This document shows, one piece after another, positions 11,120 to 33,028 of a stretch of DNA of 47,517 nt. Source of the stretch: Flavobacteriaceae bacterium (GTDB taxonomy: Bacteria > Bacteroidota > Bacteroidia > Flavobacteriales > Flavobacteriaceae). The stretch spans positions 1 to 47,517 of the forward strand of contig JANQHL010000105.1 in NCBI GenBank assembly GCA_028277085.1, read 5' to 3'. The notes below the pieces were generated by a model, which did not search any database, was not told the DNA's origin, and worked only from the letters and a program-made list of their open reading frames with translations. Position numbers and translations under genes: made by a program. How positions within the stretch are numbered: position 1 is the stretch's first letter; every line of letters begins with the position of its first letter.

Positions 11120-11196
11120 CCTCTTGTCTCGAGATGCTCTATCCCCGTCCGACCGGTGAACCCGTTCATCCGGGCGGGCAACTGAGCTAAGGAGGA
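11120..11196 (-). pseudogene. Degenerate 5' portion of tRNA-Asn with palindromic insertion in the D-loop (remnant 2)
   Basis: Minus strand TCCTCCTTAGCTCAGTT[GCCCGCCCGGATGAACGGGTTCACCGGTCGGACGGGGAT]AGAGCATC TCGAGACAAGAGGG; bracketed sequence replaces the GGTT of the intact tRNA. Confidence 0.85.
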
Positions 11197-11229
11197 ATAA
11201 ATATTCTATTCTTTATCTAATTTTTAGAA

Positions 11230-11311
11230 CTTTTTCCTTAAATACGCTTTCTGCCGGATGCAACTTAAGCTCAGTGCTGAGCCCTGCCTGCCGGCAGGCA
11301 GGTAAGGAGGA
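11230..11311 (-). pseudogene. Degenerate 5' portion of tRNA-Asn with perfect palindrome insertion (remnant 1)
   Basis: Minus strand TCCTCCTTA[CCTGCCTGCCGGCAGGCAGG]GCTCAGcactgagcttaaGTTGCATC...; the 20-bp insert is a perfect palindrome placed exactly between TTA and GCTCAG of the tRNA. Confidence 0.75.
11283..11302. repeat. Perfect 20-bp palindromic element P1
   Basis: CCTGCCTGCC|GGCAGGCAGG; related sequence inside DUF6090 ORFs (CCTGCCTGACGGCAAGGCAGG) and repeats R1/R4. Confidence 0.85.
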
Positions 11312-29847: not shown

Positions 29848-30024
29848 ATGATCCAATTCTTCAGAAGAATCCGCCAAAAACTGCTATCTGAAAATACGTT
29901 TAAAAAGTATCTGCTTTATGCAGTCGGAGAGATTGTCTTCGAGATTATTATTTTAATACGTCTAAATTTAGGTTTGAAAATGATTTTTCTCCCCTCCCAG
30001 GAGGGGAGAAATGCTATTCCATGA
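29848..30024 (+). pseudogene. Truncated DUF6090 family paralogue A (N-terminal about 50 codons)
   Basis: MIQFFRRIRQKLLSENTFKKYLLYAVGEIVFEIIILIRLNLGLKMIFLPSQEGRNAIP*; similarity to paralogues degrades after GEIV; ends in a CTCCCCTCCCAGGAGGGGAG palindrome. Confidence 0.75.
29991..30011. repeat. CCCCTCC/GGAGGGG palindrome (solo)
   Basis: ctcccctcccaggaggggag, same family as the ends of the DUF559 cassette. Confidence 0.75.
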
Positions 30025-30821
30025 TCCAGCTGTTCCGAAAAATCCGCCAAAAACTGTTTATGGACCTGCCTGACGGCAAGGCAGGGAACCCGCCCGAACG
30101 TACCCGTTCAGTACGGGCGGGTAAATTCTCGAAGTACCTGTTCTATGCTCTAGGCGAGATTATTCTGGTTGTCATCGGCATTTTGATTGCGCTCCAGATA
30201 AACAACAACAATGAAAAGCGCAAGGAACGTGCCAAGGAACAGGCCTTTTTACGAGAGATCAACCTGGACTTTAAGTCCAATAAGGAACAGCTGGACTCCA
30301 TAGTTGCATTCAACAAAATTAGCTATCATGCGGCCTCACGGCTTCTGGCAATTATGAAAACATTCGACCCAAACGATCCAAAAATCACGGAAGCAAATGC
30401 TCACTTTGCAGATAGTATAGGCTATTATAACAAACTGACTTGGCGAAACAAATCCTTCAATCCAAAAAACGGAACAGTTGAGGCCCTTTTAAATTCTTCA
30501 TCCTTTGATCTGATCAGCAATGACACCCTTAGAAGAAACCTCATTTCCTGGAAGGATGTGCTCTCTGACTATTTGGAAGAAGAAGAATTCGGGGCTAATT
30601 TCTTATTTTACGAATATGGCCCCTGGGTACACCTAAATTTTGACCCGGATAGTGATAACGACCCGGATAATGTTAAAGCCTTATTTAGTAAAGCCCATAG
30701 AAATTTTATTTACAAAAGGGCTGGTGACCTTAACAACAACATTACTGCCGTAAGGGAAGAGGGTATTTTGACAATGATCAATGAAATCATCCGACTAACC
30801 GAACACGCATCCCATGATTAA
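30021..30821 (+). CDS. DUF6090 family protein B, carrying palindrome-encoded insert
   Basis: MIQLFRKIRQKLFM-DLPDGKAGNPPERTRSVRAG-KFSKYLFYALGEIILVVIGILIALQINNNNEKRKE...; TM helix typical of DUF6090. Confidence 0.85.
   Translation: MIQLFRKIRQKLFMDLPDGKAGNPPERTRSVRAGKFSKYLFYALGEIILVVIGILIALQINNNNEKRKERAKEQAFLREINLDFKSNKEQLDSIVAFNKISYHAASRLLAIMKTFDPNDPKITEANAHFADSIGYYNKLTWRNKSFNPKNGTVEALLNSSSFDLISNDTLRRNLISWKDVLSDYLEEEEFGANFLFYEYGPWVHLNFDPDSDNDPDNVKALFSKAHRNFIYKRAGDLNNNITAVREEGILTMINEIIRLTEHASHD
30063..30122. repeat. Palindromic element P1+P2 in frame inside DUF6090 B
   Basis: GACCTGCCTGACGGCAAGGCAGGGAACCCGCCCGAACGTACCCGTTCAGTACGGGCGGGT: two adjacent palindromes. Confidence 0.85.
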
Positions 30822-30855
30822 GTTCTTCCGTCGCATCCGTCAAAAACTCCTCTCG

Positions 30856-30915
30856 GACCTGTCTGCCGGCAAGGCAGGAAACCCGGCTGAAGGTACCAAT
30901 TCGGTACGGGCTGGC
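30856..30915. repeat. Palindromic element P1+P2 (variant) inside DUF6090 C
   Basis: GACCTGTCTGCCGGCAAGGCAGGAAACCCGGCTGAAGGTACCAATTCGGTACGGGCTGG. Confidence 0.8.
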
Positions 30916-31003
30916 CAGTTCTCCAGCTACCTATTTTGCACTTGTGGTGAGATTGTCCCCATGTTTTTTGATAGTATACCTGTAAATACGAGCACAAAAA
31001 CAT

Positions 31004-31037
31004 ATACCTTCCCCTCCAGGGAGGGGATTAAGGGGTG
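31004..31037. repeat. Left imperfect inverted repeat of DUF559 cassette
   Basis: ATACCTTCCCCTCCAGGGAGGGGATTAAGGGGTG; reverse complement CACCCCTTAATCCCCTCCCTGGAGGGGAAGGTAT resembles 31412-31443. Confidence 0.75.
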
Positions 31038-31046
31038 GATAAGACT

Positions 31047-31454
31047 ATGAGAAAAATAATTCCATATAATCCCGATTTAGTATCATTGGCAAAGAAGTTG
31101 AGGAAAAACATGACCCTTGGTGAAATCGCCCTTTGGCGGGAAATCAAAGGAAAAAAAATAGGCTTCCAGTTCAGCAGACAAATACCTATAGACCAGTTTA
31201 TTGTAGACTTTTACTGCAAGGACTTGAGATTGGCTATTGAGGTAGACGGCTCAATTCACTTTAAGGAAGGCCATCCGGAAAGGGATGAAAAGCGCCAACG
31301 CCCGCTGGAATCACTTGGTGTTAAAGTGATCCGGTTCAGTGACACCGATGTGAAAAATAATCTTAGCCAAGTTTTAGATGAAATACAAGATGAAATTGAA
31401 AAATTGAAACTCACCCCTAGCCCCTCCCCGGAGGGGAAAAATACTACTCCATGA
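31047..31454 (+). CDS. DUF559 (Vsr-like PD-(D/E)XK) endonuclease domain protein
   Basis: MRKIIPYNPDLVSLAKKLRKNMTLGEIALWREIKGKKIGFQFSRQIPIDQFIVDFYCKDLRLAIEVDGSIHFKEGHPERDEKRQRPLESLGVKVIRFSDTDV. Confidence 0.92.
   Translation: MRKIIPYNPDLVSLAKKLRKNMTLGEIALWREIKGKKIGFQFSRQIPIDQFIVDFYCKDLRLAIEVDGSIHFKEGHPERDEKRQRPLESLGVKVIRFSDTDVKNNLSQVLDEIQDEIEKLKLTPSPSPEGKNTTP
31412..31443. repeat. Right imperfect inverted repeat of DUF559 cassette
   Basis: CACCCCTAGCCCCTCCCCGGAGGGGAAAAATA. Confidence 0.75.
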
Positions 31455-32212
31455 TCCAATTCTTTCGCCATATTCGTCAAAAACTCCTCCGGGAGAATCG
31501 ATTTTCCAAGTATCTGCTGTATGCCATCGGCGAAATAATCCTGGTGGTTATCGGAATTCTTATTGCGCTTCAGGTGAACAACTGGAACAATCTTAAGGCG
31601 GAAAGACAAATTGAAAAGACGTATTTAGAAGCCTTACAATCTGAATTTGAGACCAACCTGCAACGATTAAATACTGCTATAGAACTCAATGAGCAATTGG
31701 TGACGCAACTTGACGAACTCCTCACTTTTTTTGAAAAAGAGAAGTTGGATACTACTTCTTCAAAGGCTATTGCTAACATCGTCGGAACTACATTGCGGTA
31801 CGAAGTATTCTATAACCCTTCTACCGGGGTACAAACGGATATCATAAGCTCAGGGAACTTAAAACAGCTTAAAAATCCATTGCTGCGACAAAAAATTGCT
31901 TCTTTTGGAAATGCTTTGGAAAGCGTTAAACGCCAGGAGAGCCGGGCGGTAGCTCGAAGAAATAACTTAGGGGAATACATGACCGAAAAAATAAGCATCC
32001 GGAATATATTCAAAGCGGTGGGGAATGAGGTTGCCGGAAGTTCTCAATTTGAAGGAGTAGCTGTAAAAAGGTTGTTTGATTACTTGCCAGTGGAAAACGA
32101 TTTGATTTTTTACCAGGCCATTTCTCAAACCACCAATGCAATCTACTACGCTCCGCTAAAAAAGGATATTAAGGAGATTCTAGAAATAATAGCTGCGGAA
32201 CTTCAACTTTAG
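31451..32212 (+). CDS. DUF6090 family protein D (no palindrome insert)
   Basis: MIQFFRHIRQKLLRENRFSKYLLYAIGEIILVVIGILIALQVNNWNNLKAERQ.... Confidence 0.9.
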   Translation: MIQFFRHIRQKLLRENRFSKYLLYAIGEIILVVIGILIALQVNNWNNLKAERQIEKTYLEALQSEFETNLQRLNTAIELNEQLVTQLDELLTFFEKEKLDTTSSKAIANIVGTTLRYEVFYNPSTGVQTDIISSGNLKQLKNPLLRQKIASFGNALESVKRQESRAVARRNNLGEYMTEKISIRNIFKAVGNEVAGSSQFEGVAVKRLFDYLPVENDLIFYQAISQTTNAIYYAPLKKDIKEILEIIAAELQL

Positions 32213-32215
32213 AGC

Positions 32216-33028
32216 ATGCTACGATTCTTCCGCCAACTTCGCCAAAATCTACTTTCAGATCTGTCTGCCGGCAAGACAGGAAACCCGCCCGAACGTACCC
32301 GTTCAGTAGGGCCGGGTAAATTCTCAAAATACCTACTCTACGCTATAGGTGAGATTGTACTTGTGGTCATTGGTATTCTAATTGCCTTACAGATCAATAA
32401 TTATAGTGAGTACCAAAAGGAGCGAAAGCAAGAAAAGATCCTACTTACTAACCTTTCTAATGACGTTGGATTGGACATCCTGCAAATAGAAAACAATTCC
32501 AGGCTATCCAGGGAAAGACTAAACCGACTGGACAGTTTGGTACAACTCCTAAAAACGCCTGACAATATGGATGTCACCAGTTTTGTAAGACAGTCCTATG
32601 AGTTTGTCTTTGACCAATATTTTAAAAGCAATAGTGGCATTTTTGACGAAGCCGTGTCATCGGGGAAAATGAGTTACGTTAAAAATGAGTCGCTCCGTCA
32701 ACGTATTTTTAATTATTACCGCAATGCTAAAGAAACCTATACCGATGGTACTACGCGACAGATTACAGATGAGTTCATCACCCCGCTCCTGGTGGAACAT
32801 GTATATCTGAATCAGGAAGGGCTTGCCATGTTGGGCATGAAAGCAGCTGATATTGCGATGCTGGATAAGCTGGATGTGCATCAACTCTCCAAAAACCGGG
32901 AGTATTGGAAAATGGTATTGTTAAAATTCGGAGGGAATCAGGAGCAGATAATTCGCTGGGATGGGATTAAACGTCGCGCACAGACATTAAAGGAAAACAT
33001 CGACAAGGAGTTGGAACAACTAAATTGA
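32216..33028 (+). CDS. DUF6090 family protein E, carrying palindrome-encoded insert
   Basis: MLRFFRQLRQNLLS-DLSAGKTGNPPERTRSVGPG-KFSKYLLYAIGEIVLVVIGILIALQINNYSEYQKERK.... Confidence 0.88.
   Translation: MLRFFRQLRQNLLSDLSAGKTGNPPERTRSVGPGKFSKYLLYAIGEIVLVVIGILIALQINNYSEYQKERKQEKILLTNLSNDVGLDILQIENNSRLSRERLNRLDSLVQLLKTPDNMDVTSFVRQSYEFVFDQYFKSNSGIFDEAVSSGKMSYVKNESLRQRIFNYYRNAKETYTDGTTRQITDEFITPLLVEHVYLNQEGLAMLGMKAADIAMLDKLDVHQLSKNREYWKMVLLKFGGNQEQIIRWDGIKRRAQTLKENIDKELEQLN
32258..32317. repeat. Palindromic element P1+P2 (decayed arm) inside DUF6090 E
   Basis: GATCTGTCTGCCGGCAAGACAGGAAACCCGCCCGAACGTACCCGTTCAGTAGGGCCGGGT. Confidence 0.82.

Follow-up and report, generated by a model that had tools for sequence, protein, structure and literature searches.

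DUF6090 (PF19578) genes of a Flavobacteriaceae bacterium carry two very short palindromes within their coding sequence, and we argue that these palindromes, named P1 and P2, very probably represent two families of very small non-autonomous DNA elements that are tolerated as protein. The stretch analysed (hereafter the window) comprises positions 1 to 47,517 of contig JANQHL010000105.1 of assembly GCA_028277085.1, in which a DUF6090 array runs in the order stub A, B, stub C, a DUF559 gene, D and E. The paralogues B, C and E share a 54-nt in-frame insert at a common site, which A and D lack. It consists of P1 (21 nt, 7 codons) and P2 (33 nt, 11 codons), with three bases between them. An earlier note, made from the letters of the window, had placed the insert in the same three copies with a net gain of 18 codons, and both statements are correct (54 nt being 21 plus 33). 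The five paralogues it counted are five DUF6090 open reading frames (ORFs), but two of them, A and C, are stubs rather than full genes. The genes and their modules are as follows.

29848..30024, plus strand: paralogue A, DUF6090 N-terminal stub, ~58 aa, without insert (LLSEN-TFKKYLLYA)
30021..30821, plus strand: paralogue B, full DUF6090 protein, 266 aa, with P1 and P2
30065..30085, plus strand: P1 in B, 21 nt, CCTGCCTGACGGCAAGGCAGG, read D-LPDGKAG
30089..30121, plus strand: P2 in B, 33 nt, CCCGCCCGAACGTACCCGTTCAGTACGGGCGGG, read N-PPERTRSVRAG
30814..31050, plus strand: paralogue C, truncated DUF6090 stub, 78 aa, with P1 and P2
30858..30878, plus strand: P1 in C, CCTGTCTGCCGGCAAGGCAGG, with a one-sided change giving a G-U pair
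30882..30914, plus strand: P2 in C, diverged and with weaker pairing, still 33 nt and in frame
31451..32212, plus strand: paralogue D, DUF6090, site empty (LLREN-RFSKY)
32216..33028, plus strand: paralogue E, DUF6090, with P1 and P2
32260..32280, plus strand: P1 in E, TCTGTCTGCCGGCAAGACAGG, with a two-sided change that preserves the stem
32284..32316, plus strand: P2 in E, with a weaker outer stem, 33 nt, in frame

Both modules stand out from shuffled sequence. P1 gave three matches against a mean of 0.00 in shuffles and the left arm of P2 three against 0.01, and the intact insert of B folds with z = -4.8 relative to shuffles. The P1 stem reads CCTGTCT/AGACAGG in E compared with CCTGCCT/AGGCAGG, and the copy in C is a one-sided intermediate of that change. 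The frame is kept in C and E, as had been claimed, but pairing is lost only in part: P2 is weakened, and the P1 hairpin folds in both copies. In the AlphaFold model of B, the insert (residues 15-34) is unstructured, with a predicted local distance difference test score below 50 at residues 22-31, and separates helix 2-14 from a long transmembrane helix (35-114); that is, it is predicted to be a disordered linker joining two helices. The Pfam DUF6090 domain begins downstream of the insert, and B, D and E match its profile at 33.7, 42.7 and 63.1 bits, above the curated cut-off of 23.5 bits. Amino-acid-changing codon differences within the insert exceed silent ones (87 versus 51) and the flanks are near equal (61/56 and 36/33), but these pairwise comparisons are not independent and offer only a hint that constraint on the insert may be weaker.

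The history of the site can be read from its homologues. About 80 DUF6090 N-termini were gathered, chiefly from eleven genomes of the genus, and nearly all (including about 36 paralogues of the congener G002) are insert-free and read RQKLLSEN-KFSKYLLYAIGEI, so that the empty site is defined by about 75 insert-free homologues. In the congeners G005 and G008 the array is syntenic with that of the window's genome (G000), being flanked by a matching large gene and an SDR gene. The sequence after the transmembrane helix leaves no ambiguity about orthology: there, orthologues are 86-91% (B), 92% (D), 93% (E) and 77% (F) identical, and paralogues about 20%. Across these orthologues the site is found in four states. 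B carries P1 and P2 in G000 and G008 and P1 only in G005; E carries both in G000 and is empty in G005, in the 93% identical orthologue; F carries P2 only in G008 and is empty in G005; D is empty in G000 and G005; and stub C carries both modules in all three genomes. In DNA alignments, filled and empty orthologous sites differ by gaps of exactly 54, 33 or 21 nt, and no target-site duplication was found at these sites, the difference being the element alone. The four states and exact gaps show that P1 and P2 are units in their own right, and the differences in state between orthologues show that gain, loss, transfer or gene conversion continued after the species split. The two adjacent palindromes reported earlier are thus real but are two independent modules, each occurring without the other, and the reported mixture of filled and empty copies extends from paralogues to orthologues.

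Exchange among paralogues has probably also played a part. The insert is common to copies with only about 20% C-terminal identity, and in E a P1 resembling that of C is combined with a P2 resembling that of B, which argues for exchange of 5' ends; gene conversion of these near-identical ends most likely reshuffled the variants.

Outside the genus, P1 has entered DUF6090 genes again, and in more than one way. On the opposite strand, in the same linker, it is read PALPAGR in Halomarinibacterium sedimenti (LLSENK|PALPAGR|FSKY), in Croceitalea dokdonensis (TGK|PALPAGR|YFKY), in another Flavobacteriaceae genome (TGK|PALPAGR|Y) and in the genome G047 (GK|PALPAGR|Y; loci L238, L244, L245 and L023, respectively). 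In G119, P1 lies elsewhere in the gene, FR|NLPAGKAG|IRQ (L069), and in a metagenome-assembled genome (MAG) of the Cyclobacteriaceae it occupies the site that matches the window copies (L181). Each of these insertions adds seven codons, and the filled genes adjoin insert-free paralogues; Croceitalea (L244) also has a DUF6090 paralogue with P2 only, of 33 nt. Among 18 sampled coding P1 copies from Bacteroidota, four fall in DUF6090, a family that we take, as a rough estimate, to be about one thousandth of such a genome. By that count, the DUF6090 linker is a hot spot for P1.

These comparisons bear on two other explanations. The first is that the insert is a conserved segment of the DUF6090 protein and its palindromes a by-product of codon choice. 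The similar peptides of B, C and E and their intact genes would suit it, but it is refuted by the empty orthologues (nearly all of the roughly 80 homologues lack the insert, the 93% identical orthologue among them). In addition, P1 is read as different peptides on its two strands in the same linker (LPAGKAG and PALPAGR), the Pfam domain starts downstream, and the same DNA lies in tRNA remnants, intergenic DNA and unrelated proteins, which makes this explanation extremely improbable. The earlier note had suggested that the DNA element, and not the peptide, is the unit. Empty orthologues (E and F, at the same positions) and copies outside DUF6090 both support it, and neither of the two observations it had named as contrary, a segment conserved across DUF6090 families in unrelated codons and a lack of copies outside DUF6090 genes, was made. 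The second explanation supposes a single old insertion of P1 and P2 into the array; the elements would now be immobile here, and gene conversion, duplication and precise loss would account for all later variation. In its favour, hairpins tend to be deleted precisely, B, C, E and the copies in G008 share both insertion positions as well as a rare P2 loop, and the mixed make-up of E would follow readily. Yet the P1-only and P2-only states require further exact events, the independent P1 copies at other sites or in the other orientation in other genera do not fit, and the genome-wide and cross-phylum copies are left unexplained. We regard it as a real contender, if a less than probable one.

Non-coding copies tell more about P2. 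As had been noted, related palindromes occur outside genes, and two of them lie in tRNA-Asn remnants of the window.

11144..11178, minus strand: non-coding P2-like palindrome in the D-loop region of a second tRNA-Asn remnant
11283..11302, unstranded: non-coding P1, 20-nt form CCTGCCTGCCGGCAGGCAGG, within a tRNA-Asn 5' remnant

Outside DUF6090, P2 is found in intergenic DNA and in displaced 5' tRNA remnants, which it interrupts mostly at the junction of the D-loop with the 3' D-stem (TA|GAGY). Often a small GIY-YIG gene lies within a few tens of bases of such a remnant, with an intact tRNA on its far side, and a few remnants (L442, L460) bear a P1-type palindrome in place of P2. Palindrome-interrupted tRNA 5' remnants were seen at L004, L005, L008, L035, L045, L047, L048, L442, L447 and L460, as well as at 11144-11302 of the window. 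P2 measures 33 nt in all DUF6090 copies and 32 nt in most tRNA and intergenic copies of G000 and G005, as expected if multiples of three alone survive in genes, although few copies are involved and intergenic copies of 33 nt occur in G023. The search suggested earlier, with the joined P1 and P2 of about 60 bp, did find both palindromes outside DUF6090, but the composite is confined to DUF6090 genes of the window's genus and elsewhere the modules are mostly separate; a single genome-wide composite element is rejected on that ground.

From their layout, the tRNA remnant, palindrome, GIY-YIG gene and intact tRNA look like tRNA-targeting nuclease cassettes. It could be, then, that the palindromes move together with small tRNA-targeting GIY-YIG cassettes, whose nuclease would break the DNA, a hairpin being left or captured at the break. 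The repeated occurrence of P2, and sometimes P1, at the D-loop/D-stem boundary near GIY-YIG genes and intact tRNAs speaks for this. We consider it unlikely as a general account, given that such a gene is missing from the neighbourhood of many P2 and most P1 copies, that the DUF6090 sites are unlike a tRNA D-arm, that the P1 association comes from few loci and that the nuclease activity is predicted only. For P2 itself, GIY-YIG cassettes are nonetheless a candidate and the more local lead.

P1 is not restricted to Bacteroidota. The exact 21-mer occurs in at least 114 stretches of the GTDB collection, where about 0.1 would be expected by chance over 257 Gb (simple arithmetic on a uniform expectation), and the reversed pattern had no match in the genome searches. 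Among the matches listed, it occurs in Bacteroidota, many Patescibacteria, Omnitrophota, Scalindua, Ignavibacteria, Nitrospirae and others. P1 is therefore no speciality of the Flavobacteriaceae, the setting remarked on earlier. The consensus P1 (CCTGCCTGCCGGCAAGGCAGG) has no stop codon in any of its six frames. A census of exact copies among the matches listed, in which metagenome assemblies are abundant, gave 116 unique copies, 60 of them in well-supported ORFs. These ORFs include MurB, GyrA, TsaD, TsaE, RecF, UvrC, DnaK and a tRNA synthetase, names that come partly from PDB matches and partly from sequence knowledge. When the MurB of a Patescibacterium is aligned to a solved MurB, the P1 peptide forms a gap of exactly 7 extra residues. 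In the PDB alignments of GyrA, TsaD and DnaK the peptide lies in variable regions with no clean 7-residue gap, so MurB alone gave one.

The frames used are far from equal. Of the 60 coding copies, 30 read LPAGKAG, 13 read PALPAGR and the four cysteine-containing frames together account for 17 (chi-square p = 8e-11, n=60), so that the two cysteine-free frames hold 43 of the 60 where one third would be expected (p = 1.5e-9). This bias fits purifying selection on surviving insertions. The base at -1 is a purine in 117 of 125 exact copies.

Functional RNAs or terminator hairpins that happen to fall within genes would also be stable hairpins, and in Arenibacter the P1 copies are nearly all intergenic and one third have a T-run. 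Around exact P1, though, T-runs are at background (27/151 versus 16% at random positions), an Rfam search returned tRNA as its sole match and none for the palindromes, and a terminator inside an intact gene would truncate its message. We therefore regard this reading as very improbable. Carriage by phages was rejected, with P1 in 7 of 2.9 million viral contigs and the P2 pattern in none of them. On two of the viral contigs P1 forms an immediate head-to-head pair (L465, 632-673; L467, 2003-2044), and an Omnitrophica genome (G213) has short tandem P1 series with 28-nt and 64-nt spacing (C27:1273-1349; C72:7725-7873).

How such elements behave can be outlined. P1 and P2 occur as clean insertions, without target-site duplication, P1 nearly always 3' of a purine. 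Copies borne by genes add a multiple of three bases (21 for P1, 33 for P2) and so stay in frame; as the consensus P1 is also stop-free, a copy that lands where a protein is flexible is translated and tolerated. In the DUF6090 array, the site of entry was the linker that connects the N-terminal helix to the transmembrane helix. Conversion of 5' ends then most likely reshuffled the variants among paralogues, and precise gains or losses have followed since the species diverged. We infer that movement is in trans, by an enzyme. Two kinds of enzyme are candidate movers: HUH (Y1) transposases, on weak evidence, and the small GIY-YIG nucleases that adjoin tRNA remnants interrupted by P2 and P1. A broader picture, in which one 21-nt, six-frame-open P1 family is a translated parasite of housekeeping proteins in Bacteroidota, Patescibacteria, Omnitrophota and further phyla and has spread among distant bacteria with P2-like palindromes and small nuclease cassettes (GIY-YIG at tRNA D-arms, DUF559 flanked by P3) as a mobility system, strikes us as rather improbable.

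The HUH enzymes raise the possibility that P1 and P2 are repetitive extragenic palindromic (REP) sequences mobilised by REP-associated tyrosine transposases (RAYTs). Size, small-loop hairpin, asymmetry and clean insertion without target duplication all fit. Y1_Tnp genes were present in 17 of the 19 P1-rich genomes searched, and three pairs of P1 and Y1_Tnp lie within 1 kb of each other where 0.53 would be expected (p = 0.016), one being the P1-carrying DUF6090 of G047. The GTAG/CGTC tag is lacking in P1 flanks, however, and some Y1_Tnp genes of the candidate phyla radiation bear other palindromes. This origin is doubtful, the association of Y1_Tnp with P1 being weak. At two Patescibacteria Y1_Tnp loci from P1-rich genomes (L413 and L423), the flanking palindromes are TCCGACCCCTGGGGTCGGA and CCTTCAGGGAGAGTCCCTGAAGG (twice), possibly the REPs of these genes themselves.

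Several observations weigh against reading P1 and P2 as mobile elements tolerated as protein. No transposition event was observed; Y1_Tnp genes are not as a rule flanked by P1, most of the 37 Y1_Tnp loci having none nearby, and Y1_Tnp was not found in G000 at E <= 0.001 (in a genome 93% complete). The Arenibacter P1 family is nearly all intergenic, with forms of 19, 20, 21 and 22 nt. In three P1-rich genomes (Arenibacter, a Chitinophagaceae MAG and a Bacteroidetes MAG) the 21-nt forms show no coding preference (2/24 versus 3/37), so the case for in-frame selection rests on the frame bias and the DUF6090 series. P1 is also somewhat rarer in ORFs than random positions of the same loci (57% versus 78%), many copies derive from metagenome assemblies, and one insertion followed by gene conversion could explain most copies inside the array.

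Among known systems, the earlier note had likened the insert to the Rickettsia palindromic elements (RPEs), reportedly the work of Ogata, Claverie and colleagues. The likeness, drawn by description, holds in that P1 and P2 are also found in frame in unrelated genes and in non-coding DNA. RPEs are palindromic repeats that lie in frame in unrelated protein genes and in non-coding DNA and are tolerated as protein (PMC10969869, PMC3733652); they are about 150 bp long in Rickettsia (PMC10969869), and RPE-4 and RPE-6 are CGTC-tagged (PMC3733652). P1 and P2 differ in measuring 21 and 33 nt, in being untagged, in occurring in other phyla and in having an orthologous four-state series. Intragenic REPs of the GTAG/CGTC families are small palindromes within ORFs of several species, and CGTC repeats are not linked to transposase genes, including in G. 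forsetii (BMC Genomics 2013, PMC3733652). These carry tags, whereas P1 and P2 have no conserved one: in the flanks of 125 exact P1 copies we found neither GTAG nor CGTC (TGTC/CCTC) with a CCA-like tail, the purine at -1 being the only fixed flank, and P2 flanks have no such tag. The HUH enzymes of REP/RAYT and IS200/IS605 systems recognize hairpins and insert without target duplication (PMC6006769), which fits the pattern of P1 and P2, but a consistent association with Y1_Tnp genes was not seen. Bacterial miniature inverted-repeat transposable elements (MITEs) are short and non-autonomous, with inverted repeats and some in-frame fusions (PMC10969869). At 70-300 bp (PMC3733652) they are longer, with terminal repeats, while P1 and P2 leave 21- and 33-nt gaps without target duplication. 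On our best reading, P1 and P2 behave like RPEs and intragenic REPs but differ from the former, as described, in size and from the latter in the GTAG/CGTC tag. The P1 21-mer and its peptides gave nothing relevant in the published papers searched, subscription journals being mostly outside that search.

Protein-coding palindromes have so far been known mainly from Rickettsia and from scattered REPs. The DUF6090 orthologues show every step, so that gain, loss and tolerance of selfish DNA in proteins become testable in culturable relatives. That exact, frame-biased P1 copies lie in essential genes across several phyla suggests that new protein linkers arise widely from this source, as do annotation and alignment artefacts, especially in Patescibacteria.

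Other features surround the array. In G002, about 25 DUF6090 genes stand head-to-tail in one 25-kb array (C1:706400-731248; L108, L109), with P1 and P2 in none. In the window, a third palindrome, P3, accompanies the stubs and a nuclease-like gene.

29991..30006, unstranded: P3 palindrome CCCCTCCnnGGAGGGG, between A and B
31011..31026, unstranded: P3 palindrome at the end of stub C, read FPSREG
31047..31454, plus strand: DUF559 endonuclease-like gene, flanked by two P3 palindromes and missing in the G005 array
31421..31436, unstranded: P3 palindrome at the end of the DUF559 gene, read SPSPEG

Stubs A and C are truncated DUF6090 5' ends retained as short ORFs, C being conserved in three species, and near the ends of the stub ORFs codons come from P3. 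The G005 array (C41, L111) has a single P3 and lacks the DUF559 (VSR-like) gene at the place corresponding to 31011-31454 of the window, so the gene and one P3 act as a presence/absence cassette.

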